From contig JAQBPO010000032.1 of assembly GCA_028287465.1 (NCBI GenBank), forward strand, positions 1 through 64,000: a DNA stretch of 64,000 nt, written 5' to 3'. The translations under genes were made by a program, and so were the position numbers. Origin of the DNA: Fibrobacterota bacterium (GTDB lineage Bacteria; Fibrobacterota; Fibrobacteria; UBA11236). This document shows positions 1,056 to 40,515 of the stretch, piece after piece. The notes beneath the pieces were generated by a model that saw only the letters and a list, made by a program, of their open reading frames with translations, was not told where the DNA came from and ran no database searches. Every line of letters starts with the position of its first letter. The stretch's first letter is position 1.

Positions 1056-2390
1056 TTAGCGTGCCCTAAATCTTTGCACGTCGGCCTTGTCCAGGATCCC
1101 TATGTCGGATTCGACCTGGAATTTTGCGGATTTTGACCCGATTTCAAAACGGATCCTATCCGCCCCTGCGATCAGGAGATGCACTCCGCCATACGCACCT
1201 GAATGGAAATCCCCTTCCAATAAGGCTTTATGGTCCCAAAGGCTCGCGGATTCCCAACCCAGGATCCCCTGAAGCCCGTAATAGCCGCTCCAGCGCCATA
1301 ATCTGAGCGTCCGCTTCCGGACCCAATCCATGCGGTTTTCGACGGTCAGGATCGCTTCGCTTTTCCCCCGGTAGGCATCGTTGGAATAGCCGCGCAAGGT
1401 GTTGACCCCGCCCACGTGGAACCGATCATACCGGCCGAAGGTGCGATCGAGGGTGCCGGATCGGAATTGATATAATCCGGACATGGCCAGGGTATTGCGG
1501 CTTTGCCAGGGCAGGTAGAGGCGCGTATCCGAAAGCGATTCCAGGAAGTCGGCAGGGCCCCCGAGGAAGCCCCCATTCTGGGTGATGCGGAATTCCTGAT
1601 ACAATCCGCGGCGGGGATTATGCCTGCGGTCGCGGCCGTCCCACAGGACTCCGGTTCCGAGCCGCGGCACGAAATCCCCGCCTTCCCGGAGCAGGATACC
1701 GCTATCGGCCTTTCCGCCGCGCAGGAAGAACAACTCCCCCGCATACAGGATATAGGCCGGCGCCGGCAGGCCCGCCTCTCCCAGGCTCTGGGCGAGATCC
1801 AGCTTGGCCCGCCAGGAATCCTCGTGGAAGGCCTCGAAGTTGTTGTAGCTGTCCACGCGCAATACCGCCAAATCGTATTTGACGGGCAAATCCCAAAGCC
1901 GGGTCGAACTCAAGGAACCCTGGAATTCGGTCGTTCCGCCGAAGCGGGTGATGAACTCGGCCCGGATGCCTTGGCCCAGGAAATTCAGGGACGCGAGGGC
2001 GGGTCCCAGGCTAAGTCCGTCCTGATCGGTTTTGGAAACCGCGACGAAAGGGATATAGGGCGGCAGCTCTCGGAAAGCGTAGGTCAGGATGACCCCGGAA
2101 TCTTTTTCCTCGGCACGCAACCGCACCTCGGCGAAGATGTCCAGGTCCTCGAGCCCGGCTTGTTCCGCTTCCCATTTCCCGCACTCGAACGGGACGCCGA
2201 CCTTGTTCCGCAATTCCCGTTGCACGACCTCCCGGCGCGTGGTGCCCAGGCCTTCGAACTCCATGGAAGTGATCTTCAGGGAATCGGTTACCGGGCACGA
2301 TCGCGGTTCGGAGCGGGCGGGGAGGCCGGCGCAAGCGACGATCAATCCCGGAACGAAGAGGTAACGGAATGGGGAGCGGCCTGGTCGCAT
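1056..2390 (-). CDS. BamA/TamA-family outer-membrane protein, short form
   Basis: This is a 444-residue protein with an N-terminal signal segment (LFVPGLIVACAGLPARS). One POTRA-like region follows at about residues 35-110 (LKITSMEFEGLGTTRREVVQ), then a beta-barrel. The barrel carries the family hallmark VGGVNTLRGYSNDAYRG, equivalent to the VRGF/Y lid-loop motif of Omp85 proteins. It is far shorter than true BamA, which lies at 43649-46045 and has five POTRAs. It is therefore a minor Omp85 member, perhaps TamA-like or a single-POTRA translocator. No good ribosome site precedes the ATG. The gene diverges from the WYL regulator across about 70 bases. Its cargo is unknown. Confidence 0.8.
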   Translation of the reverse strand: MRPGRSPFRYLFVPGLIVACAGLPARSEPRSCPVTDSLKITSMEFEGLGTTRREVVQRELRNKVGVPFECGKWEAEQAGLEDLDIFAEVRLRAEEKDSGVILTYAFRELPPYIPFVAVSKTDQDGLSLGPALASLNFLGQGIRAEFITRFGGTTEFQGSLSSTRLWDLPVKYDLAVLRVDSYNNFEAFHEDSWRAKLDLAQSLGEAGLPAPAYILYAGELFFLRGGKADSGILLREGGDFVPRLGTGVLWDGRDRRHNPRRGLYQEFRITQNGGFLGGPADFLESLSDTRLYLPWQSRNTLAMSGLYQFRSGTLDRTFGRYDRFHVGGVNTLRGYSNDAYRGKSEAILTVENRMDWVRKRTLRLWRWSGYYGLQGILGWESASLWDHKALLEGDFHSGAYGGVHLLIAGADRIRFEIGSKSAKFQVESDIGILDKADVQRFRAR

Positions 2391-5470: not shown

Positions 5471-5844
5471 GATATTTCGATGCTCCTGTATCATGAAATG
5501 ACCCGGATCCGCCCCGCGGGCGCAAAGTCCCGTCCCAAGAGCGGCCTGGAGTCGCCCCGACGGACGGGGCATTGGGGAAATTAACTATTCTCCATCCCCT
5601 TGGGAACCCATGGGTTACCGTTGCCGGGCCTTCCCGGTTCCGATTCCCCGGGGTCCGGCAAAGGCCCGGCAACCATACGCGCCGGCCACCTGTCCAAGCG
5701 GACCGGCCCGAAGCCGCATTCCCAAGCTTGTTTTCGTGTCCGGTGGCGGTCCTGAAACGGGCTGTTTTGTAATTTTCCCCTCGATATGACGCTGTTATCG
5801 CGGGGTCCATGTGCCCCGCGGCAAACTTTCCGAAAGGGTTCATC
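5471..5844. other. Intergenic region between gnd and htrA with a GC-rich inverted repeat
   Basis: This 374-base region holds the divergent upstream regions of gnd (leftward) and htrA (rightward). It contains a perfect 12-base inverted repeat, TTGCCGGGCCTT at 5621-5632 and AAGGCCCGGCAA at 5661-5672, with a 28-base loop that is itself partly self-complementary. An AT-richer stretch at about 5768-5800 before htrA is the likely promoter zone, but I cannot fix -35 and -10 boxes. No gene-like frame with family similarity is seen. Confidence 0.5.
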
Positions 5845-7425
5845 ATGATCGGCCATCGCCGGGGTTTTCGTAAGGCCCCATCTCTCTTCCTCTCGATCCT
5901 CCTTTCCGCCGCCTTGGCGGGAACCGGTACCTTCGCCAAGGACGCCAAGGATGCCAAAGAAGATCCGCGGCCCAAGCGCGGAAGCCTGGACCTGGGCAAG
6001 GGCAAACCGGCCCAGACCGACGCCGCCAAGATCGAATTGCTCAACGGCGCTTTCGGCAAGGTCGTGGAAGCGGTCTCCCCCTGCGTGGTGAGCGTGAACA
6101 CCGAGAAGAAGTGGTCCGAGCAGGACAAGCAGATGCAGCATCCCTTCTTCGAATTCTTCGGCATGCCCAACCAGCCCGGCGGCCCCGAAGACAATTCACC
6201 CAAGCGCAACATCCCCTTGGGCGGCGGTTCCGGCTTCATCGTCAACAAGCAGGGTTACGTCTTCACCAACGCCCACGTGGTCGAAGGCGCGGATATCGTC
6301 AAGGTCAGCCTCATCAACAAGAAGACCTACATCGCCAAGGTCGTGGGCATCGACAAGAAGGCGGACGTCGCCGTGCTCAAGATCAAGGCGCCCGGCGAGG
6401 AACTCCCCGTGGTCGCTTTCGGCGACTCCAAGAAGATCGCCATCGGCGAATGGGTCCTGGCCATCGGCAATCCCTTCGGGCTTTCCAACACCGTGACGTC
6501 CGGAATCGTTTCGGCCAAGGGCCGCCGCGACCAGGTACAGCAAGGCGACGCCTACCAGGACTTCATCCAGACCGACGCGGCCGTGAACCCGGGGAATTCG
6601 GGCGGCCCGCTGGTGAACCTCAAGGGCGAGGTGGTAGGCATCAACTCCAGCATCTACACCCGCACCGGCGGCTATATGGGCGTGAGCTTCGCCATCCCAA
6701 TCAATATGGCGGTCAAGGTGGCCGAGGATCTGGTCTATGAAGGCAAGGTGACCCGCGGCTACCTGGGCATCGGCATCGACAACGTTTCCGAGAACCTGGC
6801 CGATGCCTTGGGCCTCGCCAGCACCCAGGGCTGCCTTGTCCGCGAAGTGATGAAGAACGGTCCCGCCGCGAAGGGAGGCCTGAAGGAAGGCGATATCATC
6901 CTCAAGGTCCAAAGCGTAGTGGTCCAGGACGCGGCCGACTTGCGCAACATGGTTGCCGACCTCAAGCCCGCGGAGAAATACGACTTCGAGATCCTGAGGG
7001 ACGGCAAACGTACGACCTTGGGCATCAAGATCGGCGCCAAGCCTGAGGAATCCGAAACCGCCGGTGACGATGCGGTATCGGCCCCGGAACCGGACGAGGA
7101 AAGCGGAAGCTTCCTCTCCAAGAAGCTCGGCATCCGCTTCGGCACCCTGGACAAGGATGCCCGCGTGAAATACTCCATCCCGAACGACCAGTCCGGGGTG
7201 GTGATCACCGGCGTCTCTGACGGTTCGAGCGCGGCCGAGAACGGATTGCAGGAAGGAATGGTGCTGTCCAACTACAAGCGCCAGGCCGACGGAAGCTTCC
7301 AGAAGGTCGAGGATCCGAAGAAGCTTTTATCCGTAGTCAAGACCCTGAAGCCCGGGGAGAAAATCGCGTTCAAGGTCTTCTTCAAGGGCCGTACCGACTT
7401 CATCGCGCTGCAGGCTGAGGAGTAG
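5845..7425 (+). CDS. HtrA/DegP-family periplasmic serine protease with two PDZ domains
   Basis: This is a 526-residue Do-like protease. A signal peptide (SLFLSILLSAALAGTGTFA) leads to a charged linker. The trypsin-like domain follows with a complete triad: H144 in TNAHVVEG, D174 in KKADVAVLKI and S252 in NPGNSGGPLV. PDZ1 is at about 310-400 and PDZ2 at about 430-520, the latter ending in FIALQAEE. It degrades or refolds damaged envelope proteins, matching the outer-membrane-rich content of the window. The ATG at 5845 is preferred over an upstream ATG at 5809, because AAAGGG sits seven bases before it and a signal peptide follows directly. Confidence 0.96.
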   Translation: MIGHRRGFRKAPSLFLSILLSAALAGTGTFAKDAKDAKEDPRPKRGSLDLGKGKPAQTDAAKIELLNGAFGKVVEAVSPCVVSVNTEKKWSEQDKQMQHPFFEFFGMPNQPGGPEDNSPKRNIPLGGGSGFIVNKQGYVFTNAHVVEGADIVKVSLINKKTYIAKVVGIDKKADVAVLKIKAPGEELPVVAFGDSKKIAIGEWVLAIGNPFGLSNTVTSGIVSAKGRRDQVQQGDAYQDFIQTDAAVNPGNSGGPLVNLKGEVVGINSSIYTRTGGYMGVSFAIPINMAVKVAEDLVYEGKVTRGYLGIGIDNVSENLADALGLASTQGCLVREVMKNGPAAKGGLKEGDIILKVQSVVVQDAADLRNMVADLKPAEKYDFEILRDGKRTTLGIKIGAKPEESETAGDDAVSAPEPDEESGSFLSKKLGIRFGTLDKDARVKYSIPNDQSGVVITGVSDGSSAAENGLQEGMVLSNYKRQADGSFQKVEDPKKLLSVVKTLKPGEKIAFKVFFKGRTDFIALQAEE

Positions 7426-7445
7426 CTCCGCGGTGGGTCGCGCGG

Positions 7446-7683
7446 CCGCCAGGGCCCGCGGGTGCGGGTCGGGAGCGGGCCGGCTCGGCAAGTCACCGGC
7501 CTAGGCCCTGGGACTTTCGGCCTGCCGGTTGATCCGGGCTGTGTGGCCGACGCGCCCGCTCGCTTATAAGCGGGTAGCTTCGAATGGTTCCATAGGAAGA
7601 ATGCTCTCGGGCGCTCCGCCGGCAGGCCCCGGTTTGGTTGCCTCGCCTGAACCGCCCCGACCCGCACCCGCGGGCCCTGGCGG
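7446..7683. repeat. Long inverted repeat/hairpin A (28-bp perfect arms)
   Basis: Bases 7446-7473 and 7656-7683 are perfect reverse complements over 28 bases (core CCAGGGCCCGCGGGTGCGGG). Pairing continues inward imperfectly: GGCCTGCCGG near 7517 faces CCGGCAGG near 7618, and GCGCCCG near 7551 faces CGGGCGC near 7607. A near-central palindrome CGCTTATAAGCG lies at about 7560. The whole could fold as one cruciform or RNA hairpin of about 238 nt. Confidence 0.75.
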
Positions 7684-8024
7684 ACCCAAGGCAAACCGCG
7701 GAGCGACGCGTCAGCAGGGACGCGGGCGGTTTGCGTGGGCGCAAGCGAACCGCCATTGCGCGAATCGACCCCAACCCCATCGTCCAGCCCATGCTAGCCC
7801 CAGGCGTGGGCGGACAGGGAAACACGTCAGCTTAGCCCCGCATTCCACGGCCACGCCAAATCCCTCTTCCCCGACCCACTTCCGAGAATACGAAAGACCA
7901 TCCCGATATTACCTGATGCGCAAGACAGCGGCTGGGCCAGAGCCCTTCGCCGACCTCGTGGATCTTCCGTGAGACTACAGGGTCCGCCCCAACGTTGCCT
8001 GGTCTGCTGCGGGTCGCGCGGCCA

Positions 8025-8257
8025 GGGCCTGCGCGTCGCGCGGGGTCCGGGGCTATTCGACGGAAGCGGGCGAGGCGGGCCGGTTAACGAGGCTCACGCA
8101 AGCACTCTTCCCAATGGCCCAGGGCATTAACCGGGTAATGTGCGAGCGGGTGCGGAAGCATCGGAGCATCGGCTCGTTAAACGGCCGGCGGACCCGGAGC
8201 ATCCCCGCCGACCCCGCTGCAGTCGTCAGCCCCGGGCCCCGCGCGGCGCGCAGGCCC
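8025..8257 (+). repeat. Long inverted repeat/hairpin B (30-bp arms, two G-U pairs)
   Basis: Bases 8025-8054 and 8228-8257 are reverse complements at 28 of 30 positions. The two exceptions would be G-U pairs in a plus-strand RNA but A-C clashes in a minus-strand RNA, which is why the plus strand is suggested. Pairing extends inward (CGACGGAAGCGGG against CGACTGCAGCGGG, then GGTTAACGAG against CTCGTTAAAC). The span is 233 bases, nearly the same as hairpin A, and the same 13-base word precedes it. Confidence 0.7.
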
Positions 8258-8274
8258 GGAACCCCAGCCCTGCA

Positions 8275-10713
8275 TCAGATCAGCAATTTACCCTCGAAGC
8301 CGAAGACGATGTAAAGCCCCAACCCCCGGGTGACGACGGGAGCCAGGTCCCCGTTCGCATTCGACCGCGTCCATCCGCGCCGGCGCTGGTTCGCTCCACC
8401 CAGGTAGGAAAAGGTCGAGTTCTCCGAATCGGCGAAGATATTGTCGGCCTCGAAAAAGAACCGCATGGATTCAAGCGGGCGCCATTTGCTCTTCAAATCC
8501 AGGTTGATGCGGACGTCCGTGCGCTGGCGGGATACCGCGCCGATCGTACGGTTGACGCCTACCGTCCGTTGTTCAGTGGAAGCCAAGGCCCTCGTGTCAT
8601 ACAGGCCCGTATACTCGTACAAGGGCGCGTCATTGTTGGCGCCGTAGGTGAGGATGAAGCTGAGCAGGGAATCCCGGCGGGGCAGGATGCGGATGTTCGA
8701 AACGAGATCCAGGGTGCGGTTGGCTTCCCATGGCAGGTATGTATCATCCTCCAAATGGTAATCGCCTTGCACCACCGACGCGTTCACGTTCATGCCGAAG
8801 TGATGGCTGGGAAGCCAGGCCACGGTGACATTGCCACCGTTCGCGTAGGCATAATCGGAAGAATGGGTTTCGGCATAATTCCAGAAGATTTCCGGGGCGG
8901 GAAGGAAAGGGTCCTTGTAGAACCGGGAATAGACGCTGGCGGTCATCCTGAGTTCATCGGTCCAGGCCGCTTCGGTACCGATTTTGCCTTCCACGCTCGA
9001 GGTGGTGGCCGCATCGATGCGATTGACCCCGGTAGGTTGGATGGCCGTGTTCTCGCGGACGGCCACTTCGCCGTACCCGGTCATGGTTCCGAAAACGGGG
9101 CGGGTATACCGCAGGGACGCCAAAGGCGCGGGCGTCTGGAAACCCGGGTCCGCCTCCTTCAAAACGCCTTGATAGACGACCGAGGCGCCGACGGCGGCTT
9201 CCAGGGAGCGCTTCTCGCCGGTGACCCATCTCAGGCGGAACAGCCCGGTCCCCAAGGCATAGTCCTGGCCCAGGTGGAAGCGCTCCAGCGCGCTCCGGAT
9301 ATCCAGGTATTCCCGGACCTGATTCAGGTATTCCACGTCCAGGCCGTAACTGTAGGTGGCCCCGAAGAGCTTGGAATTGGAGTTCCACTGGAAGGAGGTG
9401 TTGAACTGCAAATCCTGGGTGCTCGCATCCCCGATTAGGTTTTCGATCTCTTCGCCTGATTCCGGATACCAGGGCAACCCGGTACCGCGTCCCGTGGACG
9501 GGGGAAGCGTATCCTTGAATGTTTCCTCGCGATTGCGGCGCATGAGGCCGAAGGCGTATTGCAGGTCCCCCGTTTCCCCCGGGGACAAGGCCTCATAGGC
9601 GTAAAGGATGCCATCCTGGACGCCTTCCACCAAGGTCTGGGGCTTGCTTGTCAGAGCGGAAACGGACACGTCCTGGGTCACCCGGTAATAGTCGTCCAAC
9701 CCCATCACGCTATGGCGGGAAAAGGCGCCGGTGCTGTCCCGCTCGAAGGTCCCGAGGTACCCGTCCATGGTCCGGAACTTGAACGGGTTGTCCAGGGTAT
9801 GGCACCCGGTATCGCATGGCTTGCCATTGCTTTGCAAGCGGGCATCCTTCGGCTCGGTGAAAAAGTGGTTGCCCAGGTTGGCCAGGAAGGTGGGCTCCAG
9901 GTAGCGGCCGCTGGCGATGAAGGTGCGTCCGCCCCAATACCCGGTGAGGTTGAGCTCCCGGTTGACCGTACCGAATACCACGTCCCCGGTGATGTTGTTG
10001 GGATCCCCTTCCCTGAGGTCGTAGACGAGGGCGGAGGAGTTCCCCTGATTGATCGGGCCCTTGGCCAGGTTGTCCGAAAGGGTGATGGATTTGAGCAGGC
10101 GGGGGTTGAGTACGCTCTGGTTCCCGGGGAACCCGATGTCCAGGTGCCGGAGGCTGGGAATGCGGCTCTGGCCCAGGTAATGGGTCACGTCGTTGGTCCG
10201 GGAGCCCCAGACCGAGATGTCGTTGGTGAATTCGTTCATGCCGGATACACCGGGAAGCTGGCGGAGATGATCGTTCAGATCGATGCGCATGCCCTGCATC
10301 AGCTCCAGCTCTTCCATGGTGCGAGCCTGGCCCAACTCCCGGGACACGGGCTTGCGGGCCACGGTATCCTTTTCGGCCAGTTCGACCACGTCCGATTGCA
10401 TGCTGACTTCGATATCGATCAGCTCGGTCAAATCGGATAGATCCAATTCCGCCGGCTTGTAGGTATGGCGGGTGAATACCAGGGTGGCGTTATGGCTGTT
10501 CACCGTGATCTCGAAGCGGCCGTTGGACTTGGAATAGCCAAGGACCTTGCCGCTCTTGAGGGCGATCTGGACCTGGCCGACGGGTTCCCCTTTTTCCTCG
10601 TCCTGGACCAGGCCGACCACGTCATAGGTCTGGGAGAAAGCGGGCAAGGCCGCCAGGAGCAAACAAGCCAGTAGTCCCGACCGCCGAATCAAACGTCCAA
10701 AAATGCGCTGCAA
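8275..10713 (-). CDS. TonB-dependent-receptor-like outer-membrane protein with N-terminal carboxypeptidase-regulatory-like domain
   Basis: The protein is about 812 residues. A signal peptide (GLLACLLLAALPAFS, cut before QTYDV) leads to a carboxypeptidase-regulatory-like beta domain (about 30-95: VVGLVQDEEKGEPVGQVQIA). A plug-like domain follows (about 130-260, with LRQLPGVSGMN and ISVWGSRTND), then a large beta-barrel. The build matches SusC/TonB-receptor-like proteins, but no TonB box is evident and the last residues (GKLLI) lack the usual terminal aromatic. A TTG at 10713 is taken as start because AGGGGG lies six bases before it and the promoter at 10776-10803 would start RNA near 10768. 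Another TTG in frame at 10761 is possible. The transported substrate is unknown. Confidence 0.8.
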   Translation of the reverse strand: MQRIFGRLIRRSGLLACLLLAALPAFSQTYDVVGLVQDEEKGEPVGQVQIALKSGKVLGYSKSNGRFEITVNSHNATLVFTRHTYKPAELDLSDLTELIDIEVSMQSDVVELAEKDTVARKPVSRELGQARTMEELELMQGMRIDLNDHLRQLPGVSGMNEFTNDISVWGSRTNDVTHYLGQSRIPSLRHLDIGFPGNQSVLNPRLLKSITLSDNLAKGPINQGNSSALVYDLREGDPNNITGDVVFGTVNRELNLTGYWGGRTFIASGRYLEPTFLANLGNHFFTEPKDARLQSNGKPCDTGCHTLDNPFKFRTMDGYLGTFERDSTGAFSRHSVMGLDDYYRVTQDVSVSALTSKPQTLVEGVQDGILYAYEALSPGETGDLQYAFGLMRRNREETFKDTLPPSTGRGTGLPWYPESGEEIENLIGDASTQDLQFNTSFQWNSNSKLFGATYSYGLDVEYLNQVREYLDIRSALERFHLGQDYALGTGLFRLRWVTGEKRSLEAAVGASVVYQGVLKEADPGFQTPAPLASLRYTRPVFGTMTGYGEVAVRENTAIQPTGVNRIDAATTSSVEGKIGTEAAWTDELRMTASVYSRFYKDPFLPAPEIFWNYAETHSSDYAYANGGNVTVAWLPSHHFGMNVNASVVQGDYHLEDDTYLPWEANRTLDLVSNIRILPRRDSLLSFILTYGANNDAPLYEYTGLYDTRALASTEQRTVGVNRTIGAVSRQRTDVRINLDLKSKWRPLESMRFFFEADNIFADSENSTFSYLGGANQRRRGWTRSNANGDLAPVVTRGLGLYIVFGFEGKLLI

Positions 10714-10775
10714 AAAGGCCCCCTGGGGTTGCCGCCCCGCCCGTTTCGCCGGGCCGGGCAATCCATCGAAAAACG

Positions 10776-16145: not shown

Positions 16146-16913
16146 CTAAGGTAGTAAAACCCGCCTTTGCCACCGATTGAGGCGCGGGTCCCGCCAGCAA
16201 TGGAGGAAACGGGATCCAAGAGGAAGCCAGGGGAAGGAGAACAAGGTCAGGAACCCGAAAACGAGGACGTTGAGTCCGGTGAATCCTCCCGCAAGGCGGG
16301 CCTTGAAATTGAATGGCTCGGTGAATCCCCATCCCACCGGGCATGCCAGGGCGGGTATGGTTCCCTGGACTATGGACCAGGCGGCGGCGATGCGGCCGAG
16401 GTCGTATACGTCTTCCAGGCCCAGATGCATGAACTTCAGCGCCGGGTGCAAAAGCCCCAGGACACGCCGCCCCGATTTCAGGGTGAAGCGAAGGAGGAGG
16501 CGCCAGACTCCCACGTCCAACGCCCATTTGGTGAACGCTTTGCGGGTGCGGACCCGGAATCGCTTCGTAAAGAGCAGCCAGGACTCCGGAATGCCTACGG
16601 CGCCCCGTTGCCCGTCATCGGAACGCGGCCCAAGTCCTTCTCCGGTTCCCGGAGCCGGAGCGACCTCTTCGTCCAGAGAGGATTCGTCGAACTCCCCCTC
16701 TTCCTCGGATTCATCGTATTCCTCGTGATGGCCCATTACCGTATGCGCGACATCCAAGACCACCGCCTCGCGCCGGAACCAGAGGAAGGAAACGCCCACG
16801 GTACCCCTGAAGACGGCCGGGGTCTCGACGTCGATGCTGAAATGGACTCGGAAGAAATGAAGGAGGAGGAGGAACAGGACGGGAATGGCCAGGGCGATGT
16901 AGACCCAGACCAT
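16146..16913 (-). CDS. Membrane protein of unknown function (possibly DUF2953-like)
   Basis: This is a 255-residue protein. An N-terminal TM helix (MVWVYIALAIPVLFLLLLHF) is followed by a beta-rich stretch, a very acidic segment (YDESEEEGEFDESSLDEEVA, about 66-85) and a basic helical region. A C-terminal hydrophobic stretch (GLNVLVFGFLTLFSFPW) comes late. The pattern of N-terminal anchor, long loop and a late LGRIAAAWSIVQG region recalls DUF2953 proteins, but only weakly. It starts 10 bases after the mlaC-like stop, so it is co-transcribed with the lipid-transport genes. Confidence 0.5.
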   Translation of the reverse strand: MVWVYIALAIPVLFLLLLHFFRVHFSIDVETPAVFRGTVGVSFLWFRREAVVLDVAHTVMGHHEEYDESEEEGEFDESSLDEEVAPAPGTGEGLGPRSDDGQRGAVGIPESWLLFTKRFRVRTRKAFTKWALDVGVWRLLLRFTLKSGRRVLGLLHPALKFMHLGLEDVYDLGRIAAAWSIVQGTIPALACPVGWGFTEPFNFKARLAGGFTGLNVLVFGFLTLFSFPWLPLGSRFLHCWRDPRLNRWQRRVLLP

Positions 16914-16923
16914 CCCGAATCCT

Positions 16924-17646
16924 TCAGTGCGAAGCCGGCACGGCCGCGGGGGTGGAGGCGGCGGCCGGCGTGGTCGAGGGAGCCTTCTTTACCGTGCCGG
17001 TATTGGCGGCCGGGGCCTTTTCGGACTTGGACTTCAGGTTGTCGGCGGGTTTGATGCCGGCGGAGCCATTGCCCTTCTTCTCCAGCTTGGCGATCAGGCC
17101 GTCTATGTTGGACGTCTGCAGGATTTTACGGAACTGTTCCCCGTAGTTGCGCGCCGTGCTCAGATCATCGATGACCAGGTCCCAGGCTTTCCAGGTGGTA
17201 TCCTTGGCGAGCAGCTTGTAGGTGACCACGGATTCGGTCCCTTTCGACCAGACATGGGCCGTCACATTGGCCTTGCCATCGGTGACCTCGGGAGCCTCAT
17301 AGGTGGAGGAGTCCGACTGGTAGACTTCAAGCTTCTTGACCGAGGCGTTCTCGACCATCTCCCGGAACGCTTTGACGAAACGCTTTTGCTGGTCCGGAGT
17401 CATGGTCTTCCAGGTCGCGGGACCCAGGGCGCGTTTGCCCAATTCCTCGAAATCGAAAATGCCGTTGATGAGGACCTTGAGCCGATCGGTCTTCTTCGAG
17501 GCTTCCTTGTCGCGCAGCATCCTTTGGAGCTCCGCATCCTTCTTCTTGATGACGGCGACAGGATCGCCCGGGGCGGAAAACGCCGGGGCCGCCGCCAGCG
17601 CCAAAGCGGCCATTCCCGCCAGTATTCCCGATTTCAATGAACGCAT
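16924..17646 (-). CDS. MlaC/Ttg2D-type periplasmic lipid-binding protein
   Basis: This is a 240-residue protein. A signal peptide (GILAGMAALALAAAPAFS) precedes the MlaC domain, seen in LINGIFDFEELGKRALG, QQKRFVKAFREMVENAS and WKAWDLVIDDLSTARNYGEQ. MlaC shuttles phospholipids between an outer-membrane partner and the inner-membrane MlaFEDB complex. The last 45 or so residues are a Lys/Ala/Pro/Thr-rich tail beyond the normal domain. The ATG at 17646 is chosen because AAGGAG lies five bases before it. It lies 76 bases after the tolC-like gene and is divergent from mlaE/F/D. Confidence 0.88.
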   Translation of the reverse strand: MRSLKSGILAGMAALALAAAPAFSAPGDPVAVIKKKDAELQRMLRDKEASKKTDRLKVLINGIFDFEELGKRALGPATWKTMTPDQQKRFVKAFREMVENASVKKLEVYQSDSSTYEAPEVTDGKANVTAHVWSKGTESVVTYKLLAKDTTWKAWDLVIDDLSTARNYGEQFRKILQTSNIDGLIAKLEKKGNGSAGIKPADNLKSKSEKAPAANTGTVKKAPSTTPAAASTPAAVPASH

Positions 17647-38905: not shown

Positions 38906-39835
38906 ATGGATAAAGCCCGTCACGTACCGGTAGGCCCAGCCCGTTCCCCCGGGGCCTCGGCCTCCCCCGATATCTTCCTCTTCTACGATTACCGCGCCTT
39001 CCTCAAGGCCCTGTTCGAATACAACAAATCCCAATCGAGGCGATTCTCGCACAGGTACATCGTAACGCGGGCGGGCTTCAAATCCCCCAATGTCCTCAAG
39101 AACGTCATCGACGGCCGCAGGAACCTGACCTTCGCCGCCGCGGAGCAGTTCGCCAAGGCCTTCAAGCTGGAAGGCGCGGCCAGGAAGTATTTCCTCTCCC
39201 TGGTGCAATACAACCAGGCCGGAACATCCACCGAGCGTGAGAAGTTCTTCCAGGAGTTGGTGGATATGCGCGCCCGCGAGAATCCGGCGCGCCTGGGCGA
39301 ACGGCAATACGAAGTCTTCTCCCATTGGTGGCACCTCGCGATCCGTGAAATCGTATCGCTCCCGGATTTCCAATTCTCCCCGGAATGGGTGTCCGACGCG
39401 CTGACCCCGTCCATCACGCCCGAAGAAGCGGCGGAATCCCTGACCCTGCTCAAGACCCTTGGACTCATCGCCATGAACCGCGACCGGACCTGGACCCAGG
39501 TGGAAAAGACCATGGCCACGGACGCCCGCGTGAAATCCGTCATGGTATCCCAATTCCACCGCGAGATGATACGCCTGGGAGGCGAATCCCTTTCGCGCTT
39601 TCCCGGAAAGGACCGCGAGATAAGCGGAACGACCCTGCGCGTATCGGAACCGGACCTGGACAAGATAAAGGGATGGCTGCGCGAATTCCGCCTGAAGATC
39701 CTGGGCCTGGCCGCCCAAAGCGCCGGGGCCGACCAAGTGTACCAGCTGAACTTCCAGTTCTTCCCGCTGGTCAAGGGAAAGCGCGGCAACGGCAACAAGC
39801 ATCCGGACAACCGCAACGCGGAGGGCCAACCATGA
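38906..39835 (+). CDS. TIGR02147/DUF4423-family HTH regulator
   Basis: This is about 309 residues. The N-terminal Xre-like HTH part runs FLFYDYRAFLKALFEYNK, then RYIVTRAGFKSPNVLKNVI and LTFAAAEQFAKAFKLEG. The C-terminal DUF4423 domain contains HWWHLAIREIVSLPDF and ITPEEAAESLTLLKTLGLI. This family is strongly expanded in Fibrobacterota, where members precede lipoprotein genes. A TTG at 38870 is an alternative start. Its TGA overlaps the next ATG (ATGA), so it is translationally coupled to the lipoprotein. It probably regulates its own cassette; the ligand is unknown. Confidence 0.9.
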   Translation: MDKARHVPVGPARSPGASASPDIFLFYDYRAFLKALFEYNKSQSRRFSHRYIVTRAGFKSPNVLKNVIDGRRNLTFAAAEQFAKAFKLEGAARKYFLSLVQYNQAGTSTEREKFFQELVDMRARENPARLGERQYEVFSHWWHLAIREIVSLPDFQFSPEWVSDALTPSITPEEAAESLTLLKTLGLIAMNRDRTWTQVEKTMATDARVKSVMVSQFHREMIRLGGESLSRFPGKDREISGTTLRVSEPDLDKIKGWLREFRLKILGLAAQSAGADQVYQLNFQFFPLVKGKRGNGNKHPDNRNAEGQP

Positions 39836-40515
39836 TGCGCTCCTCCCGGCTGACCTTAGGCCTGTCTGCGGTGATCCTCGCCTCCATGGCGGCGATCGCG
39901 GCCCTTTCCGGGTGCAATCTCTCCCCCGGCGGCGGCACCGACGTGGGTAACCCTGAAGTTACGGCGCGAGTGAGCGGATCCCTGGTCCGCCTGGACGGGT
40001 CCCCCGCCCCCCTGATCCCGGTCAAATTGAGGCCGAAGGCCTTCCTGACCAATCCCGACAGCGCCTCCGCTCCGTCCGGCCGATCCGTGCAGGACGGCGT
40101 CACCGACACCCAAGGGTTCTTCACCTTCGATTCCGTGCCCCAGGGCGACTATCGAATCGAGGCCATGGATACGGGTTCCCATGGCGCCATGGCGGAATTC
40201 TCCGCGGATGGCCGCGCCTCCCGCATCAACCTGGCGCCGGAGCGCATGGACACCACCGGATCGATGACCGGGAAGGTGAATTACCTGGGTCCGATCAAAT
40301 CGGTTTTCCCCAAGGTGATCATAGCGGTCTATGGGACGGATCGATGGACCGCGGCCAATAACGCGGGGGAATTCACCCTCAGCGACCTGCCTCCGGGGAA
40401 ATACACCCTTAGGATCTCCACTACCGCCGGCACGGGTTTTACGGCGATGGTCCCCGAAACTGGGTTGACCGCGGGCGGACGGGCCTCGGTGGGAACGGTG
40501 GATCTGGGGCCTTGA
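39832..40515 (+). CDS. Lipoprotein with GGGTDVGNP motif and two carboxypeptidase-regulatory-like domains
   Basis: This is a 227-residue lipoprotein. The signal peptide ends in the lipobox AALSGC, followed at once by NLSPGGGTDVGNPE, a motif I associate with Fibrobacterota lipoproteins next to TIGR02147 genes. Two beta-sandwich repeats follow: GSLVRLDGSPAPLIPVKL with GFFTFDSVPQGDYRIEAMD, then GSMTGKVNYLG with GEFTLSDLPPGKYTLRI. These are typical carboxypeptidase-regulatory-like folds that bind or scaffold at the cell surface. GGAGG lies seven bases before the ATG at 39832. Both ends overlap neighbours, so the three genes form one unit. Confidence 0.85.
   Translation: MMRSSRLTLGLSAVILASMAAIAALSGCNLSPGGGTDVGNPEVTARVSGSLVRLDGSPAPLIPVKLRPKAFLTNPDSASAPSGRSVQDGVTDTQGFFTFDSVPQGDYRIEAMDTGSHGAMAEFSADGRASRINLAPERMDTTGSMTGKVNYLGPIKSVFPKVIIAVYGTDRWTAANNAGEFTLSDLPPGKYTLRISTTAGTGFTAMVPETGLTAGGRASVGTVDLGP

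Follow-up and report, generated by a model that had tools for sequence, protein, structure and literature searches.

The window analysed here is a stretch of 64,000 nt from the genome of an uncultured member of the Fibrobacterota. The gap at 7426-8274 has an htrA-type protease gene on one side and a gene for a CarboxypepD_reg-domain protein on the other, and it contains two GC-rich hairpins of about 235 nt each. The genes are convergent, and no gene is supported in the gap, though mechanical open reading frames occur there; both points had been predicted. The product of the second gene is probably a TonB-receptor-like outer membrane protein, a receptor assignment that we infer. The features are as follows, where R2 is a covariance model given on the strand that runs away from the neighbouring gene.

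5809-7425, plus strand: gene for an HtrA/DegP-type protease (trypsin-like and PDZ domains; Pfam Trypsin_2 8.7e-36, PDZ_2 1.3e-16), its stop codon adjoining hairpin A
7446-7683, minus strand (the strand pointing at htrA): hairpin A, arms 7446-7473 and 7656-7683; R2 match at 7470-7660, plus strand, 148.5 bits
7560-7611 (approximate), minus strand: conserved apical segment of hairpin A (alignments A1 and A4)
7686-7739, no strand: small inverted repeat between hairpin A and the C-rich tract, 14-nt arms, 86%
7740-8020, plus strand: C-rich, G-poor tract leading into hairpin B, 107 C and 72 G; best 78-nt C/G 3.5 near 7835-7913
7777-7843, no strand: short stem-loop segment kept in two other species (BLAST in G002 and G003)
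8025-8257, plus strand (the strand pointing at the 8275-10761 gene): hairpin B, arms 8025-8054 and 8228-8257; R2 match at 8047-8235, minus strand, 151 bits
8098-8150 (approximate), plus strand: conserved apical segment of hairpin B (alignments A1 and A4)
8275-10761, minus strand: gene for a CarboxypepD_reg-domain protein (Pfam CarbopepD_reg_2 31.8 bits, just below the 32.2 cut-off), its stop codon adjoining hairpin B

Both long inverted repeats lie where the original prediction had placed them. Hairpin A has perfect 28-bp outer arms that are part of a longer imperfect repeat (7414-7715), and hairpin B has 30-nt arms that are Watson-Crick at 28 positions, the two departures being, as had been noticed, G-U when read on the plus strand and A-C on the minus. 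When ungapped palindromes were sought throughout the window (outer span up to about 330 nt), A scored 30, B 24 and the third best 14, and no palindrome scoring 14 or more occurred in two mononucleotide shuffles of the window. Both hairpins folded far better than dinucleotide shuffles on either strand, with z-scores (plus/minus) of -6.9/-7.5 for A and -6.3/-5.0 for B, and no shuffle folded as well. The small stem predicted between them is also present. Elsewhere in the window a weaker 17-nt inverted repeat (39602-39912, score 14) spans 311 nt and has no match to the family model.

The 13-base word said to precede each hairpin does occur exactly twice in the window, but its placement is not equivalent relative to the orientation of each hairpin, since at hairpin A it falls immediately outside the hairpin, toward htrA, and at hairpin B immediately inside, toward the gap. 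Part of the word, GGTCGCGC, is found in 5 of 34 elements on the gene side, at most 60 nt from the hairpin base, against an expectation of about 0.002 per element. Two other parts of the prediction were not borne out. By rough gene calls, which may miss small genes, the gap is not the longest gene-free stretch in the window, as a convergent gap of 1343 nt follows 41780, and the hairpins are not in tandem, because their orientations oppose when they are aligned by the conserved apical core, each belonging to its own flanking gene boundary.

Hairpins A and B belong to an undescribed dispersed family of hairpins of about 230 nt, found in a single genus of uncultured Fibrobacterota; that they might form a new repeat family was among the possibilities raised at the outset. 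A BLAST search with the gap sequence gave one further copy (73%) elsewhere in the genome (5.8 Mb, 100 contigs), and two other species of the genus have both hairpins in the same gap together with the conserved stem-loop at 7777-7843 between them. Covariance models built from 8 and later 14 copies detected 6-10 copies in this genome; the two double-hairpin species had up to 11 and 6, two further species of the genus had one each, and the sixth had none. The model was not relied on by itself for copy numbers, and a palindrome scan of 1.57 Mb of this genome was added without it. It yielded extra members that are weak or negative by the model (L151, L157, L165, L141:4870 and L222:7201), and nearly every long, perfect GC-rich hairpin in it was of the family kind. 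At least 15 copies are known in this genome, and 15-30 is a fair estimate of the copies per genome; an extrapolated 50-60 was withdrawn when a third scan gave only 2 elements in 0.8 Mb. The apical loop differs in some copies (L025, L040 and L041; L027 and L141:4870).

No copy was detected outside the genus in a limited first look at 145 other Fibrobacterota genomes, which weak copies could escape; a match in G008 lay inside a helicase gene and was set aside as chance. A pattern search of all genomes returned 57 stretches, for which the covariance model confirmed two Fibrobacterota contigs only; the other 55 stretches and two viral ones had no model match. Rfam 15 gave no match at E up to 1 in 7000-8800 and none at gathering scores in the window. 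A literature search found no relevant paper on repeats or structured RNAs of the Fibrobacterota.

Compensatory changes among copies and species bear out the predicted selection on structure. In a stated structure of 35 pairs, compared in 14 aligned copies with shuffles and slid registers, pairing was possible in 85% of cells against 70.5% in shuffles, double-sided changes were found in 30 of the 35 pairs against 15.4, and the covariation score was 0.403 against 0.174 in shuffles and at most 0.141 in slid registers; none of 500 shuffles attained any of five measures. The structure was partly picked on the same alignment, which favours it over its slid versions, though the margin is nonetheless large. 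An RNAalifold structure from the first 8 copies gives the same picture, with 32 of 54 pairs. The outer arms are nearly perfect, yet their sequence varies by species and copy, and their similarity is mostly at the level of shuffled controls, orthologues included. What stays recognisable, on the strand reading away from the adjacent gene, are internal loops (approximately GAC/UGAU and UNC/UCC) and an apical segment, CATTAGCCGGTC...CCATTG...AGGAAGAG.

Such perfection of the arms could also arise at the level of DNA, if the palindromes extrude or bind a nucleoid protein at gene borders and owe their pairing mainly to template switching between arms. Watson-Crick pairs occupy 932 of 974 arm positions, with few G-U, and convergent gaps accumulate positive supercoils. 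Two near copies 11 kb apart (L141; G000:C100 124870-125095 and 136056-136276) are 89% identical in the inner part and have altered both arms in step through matching indels, to which template switching may have contributed as well as selection. The asymmetric conserved apical sequence, the internal loops, the strict polarity and the strand-specific C-rich tract described below better fit RNA, however, and we regard a DNA-level palindrome as very improbable.

Orthologous sites indicate that the element is inherited and at times lost, replaced or duplicated. The hairpin 3' of htrA is kept, with compensatory change, in five of the six species of the genus, and in the sixth htrA has a different downstream neighbour and no hairpin. 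At the YicC site the element is present in three species and absent in three; after the LeuA-type gene it is present in two, and a third (G003) has a canonical hairpin-T7 terminator instead. This variation at the YicC and LeuA sites, the dispersal of the copies and the recent L141 duplication are what would be expected of a MITE-like element, non-autonomous, mobile now or in the past, and with gene borders as its target, but the arms are not common to the copies, shared ends were not seen, no transposase is linked to them, and the htrA site has been retained with its pairing maintained. The empty sites at hand belong to other species and have diverged too far for a target duplication to be recognised; none was seen. 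We consider a MITE-like origin quite unlikely.

The placement of the hairpins is highly regular. A gene boundary is found 0-50 nt from the base of the hairpin in 31 of 32 elements, and the median distance, taken by hand and in some cases approximate, is 17 nt to the near gene and 351 nt to the other. About 27 of the 32 stand next to a stop codon, with the hairpin beginning 0-40 nt from it, and 5 next to a start codon. The genes abutted at their stop codons encode HtrA, LeuA-type, YicC, superoxide dismutase, YbjQ, SecDF, RseP-type M50, poly(A)-polymerase-type, aldo/keto reductase and PglZ response regulator proteins, among others; those abutted at their start codons (L028, L060, L066 and L067, the last twice) include genes for PurD and a glycosyltransferase. 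In the divergent gap of L067 two hairpins face outwards to two starts, a mirror image of the arrangement in the window. Polarity is also constant, as every model hit with E up to 0.01 has the same strand pointing at the near gene; the orientation of copies missed by the model was set by adjacency and hence is not independent evidence. At L157 (1304-1373) the frame of the abutting gene (1304-2170, minus strand) enters the hairpin arm for about 20 codons as an Ala/Gly-rich tail, perhaps through a lost stop codon.

The elements next to stop codons first suggested a 3'-UTR element, in which the mRNA of the abutting gene would end in the hairpin and be terminated, protected from exonucleases or bound by a protein there. 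Stem-loops near stop codons are widespread (PMC1590033), and the substitution of a canonical terminator in G003 accords with such a role. The idea was demoted once the start-codon elements turned up, for which the polarity is reversed from that of a 3' UTR, and the lack of a U-tract and a G-U bias in the arms that favours the opposite strand also count against it. It remains a reading to which we give a modest and minor share of belief.

On the gene-pointing strand, C is abundant and G scarce over the 350 nt that lead up to the hairpin. There the best 78-nt C/G has a median of 3.6; the corresponding values are 1.0 for the opposite strand and 1.8 for 130 control 3' flanks (p 3e-10). By the C-rich, G-poor composition over about 78 nt that characterises Rho-dependent terminators, hairpin B has such a tract (3.5), whereas hairpin A has none on its own strand (best C/G 1.4). 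It is likewise absent from the hairpin A orthologues of the two other double-arrangement species and from one L065 hairpin. In the L065 pair the tract belongs to the partner hairpin, as it does for the htrA-side hairpins of the three double-arrangement species; in two species where only the htrA hairpin is known, that hairpin has a C-rich stretch of its own.

In composition the tract resembles a Rho-loading site. The RhoTermPredict rule for Rho-dependent terminators is a C-rich, G-poor sequence followed by a hairpin (PMC6407284), and exonucleases trim Rho-terminated RNAs as far back as a stable stem-loop (PMC9927376). The genome has a rho gene, the main Rho being encoded on contig C90. A second Rho-like protein (G000:C55:71676-72761; 432 bits to TIGR00767, below the cut-off of 509) may be a paralogue. 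No terminator-like site with a U-tract was found on either strand of 7300-8400.

Several tracts are tandem arrays of small stems and pyrimidine-rich linkers (L025, L061, L064 and L065). The L025 flank (G000:C1, upstream side of 16816-17045) has about four tandem units of about 60 nt, each made of a small stem (GGACAACC..GGTTGTCC) and a linker that is C/T-rich on the strand running toward the hairpin, and the arrays of L061, L064 and L065 are related to it. A small stem with a consensus near CCGCG-GGGAGAATT-CGCGCGG recurs in the flanks of L015, L061 and L064 and is possibly a second short repeat family of this genome.

The G-U departures in hairpin B had been read as a hint of an RNA under structural selection. 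The family follows this in its outer arms, which lean to G-U on the gene-pointing strand (14 G-U against 5 A-C in 34 elements, p=0.06; 13 against 3, p 0.02, in a previous tally of 28), but in the inner helices the two are balanced (12 against 13), and the lean is a hint and not proof. A search of both strands for a promoter signal found none. This bears on the reading of the element as an independent structured non-coding RNA, with a promoter in the gap, a C-rich leader and a giant hairpin whose apical motif would serve a trans or scaffold role. Conservation of the apical sequence and internal loops, covariation, and the occurrence of elements even where no gene reads into them would suit such an RNA, while the lack of a promoter signal, the many diverged copies in each genome and the constant abutting of the base on a gene, which it leaves unexplained, would not, and we think it improbable.

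The elements abut a gene at either end, keep one polarity, are approached by a C-rich tract and consist of a structured hairpin with no U-tract, and for these reasons we favour, tentatively and with a confidence somewhat short of even, the view that they are genus-specific cis-acting boundary elements, each a polar Rho-dependent barrier that keeps RNA polymerase out of the adjacent gene. Transcription of the gap, the use of Rho, termination and protection of the gene are steps that we infer. RNA polymerase leaving the gap toward the gene would transcribe the C-rich tract, which in the RNA would load Rho, and the giant hairpin would stall the polymerase, become a protected 3' end, or both. The neighbouring gene would thus be spared incoming transcription, both antisense transcription begun at a convergent gene and read-through of a gene upstream. 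In the window, transcription leaving htrA would be kept by hairpin B from reaching the 3' end of the 8275-10761 gene, and hairpin A would shield htrA from the opposite side.

The covariation, the closeness of the base to one gene at its stop or start codon, the constant strand, the C/G excess over control flanks beside a resident rho, the terminator that takes the element's place in G003, the gap without a U-tract terminator and the G-U lean of the arms all accord with this polar barrier. Against it stand the hairpins without a C-rich tract of their own and the inner helices without strand bias. At L027, L041 and L064, moreover, no gene reads toward the hairpin from the tract side, so that any transcription to be blocked there would need an origin inside the gap, for which the promoter search gave no signal. 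For a barrier, the conserved apical motif is also needlessly elaborate; no reading accounts for it fully, and it suggests a binding partner. A bolder form of the barrier, a new class of bacterial polar transcription insulator in which a Rho-loading tract is joined to a 230-nt structured RNA whose apical motif binds a dedicated factor, fencing genes at either end, we consider unlikely.

The element is thus undescribed and restricted to a genus, and combines strong covariation with fixed gene-abutting placement and fixed polarity. If it does insulate transcription units, it would rank as a bacterial terminator of unusual elaboration, one that could perhaps be used to keep genes apart in synthetic circuits; if it does not, it would still be a striking, fast-evolving palindrome that is held perfect at gene borders. 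In both cases it is a precise target, open to experiment, in a phylum whose RNA biology has received little attention.

YPAL, ERIC, NEMIS and REP repeats are likewise hairpins scattered near genes, and some of them influence mRNA stability (PMC2229807, PMC2267715, PMC1590033), but by shared sequence the present family does not belong with them. The YPAL or RU-2 elements of Yersinia are intergenic palindromes, like the present family, of about 168 bp that are co-transcribed with upstream genes and are suspected of influencing mRNA stability (PMC2229807). YPAL copies, however, share sequence, leave target duplications of 3-26 bp and look recently mobile, whereas in the present family the arms differ from copy to copy and target duplication was not seen. 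ERIC and Correia/NEMIS elements are intergenic, about 100-160 bp, form long stem-loops as RNA and change the mRNAs of the genes next to them (PMC2229807), but their terminal inverted repeats are defined (tabulated for Correia/NEMIS) and their sequence is conserved, neither of which was seen here, and the present hairpins are larger and have a polarity and a C-rich tract. Rho-dependent terminators resemble the family in their C-rich, G-poor stretch followed by a GC-rich hairpin (PMC6407284), and this genome has a rho gene; the known ones lack a conserved structured hairpin of 230 nt, and here hairpin A lacks its own tract. Intrinsic terminators likewise place a GC-rich hairpin right after stop codons, and one replaces the element at an orthologous site, but the present hairpins are about 10 times larger, also lie against start codons and have no U-tract, none following directly after a hairpin in 7300-8400. 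According to a general survey, 3' ends and convergent gaps are where stable stem-loops are concentrated (PMC1590033), and so the place of these hairpins is ordinary, whereas their size, covariation, polarity and C-rich tract are not.
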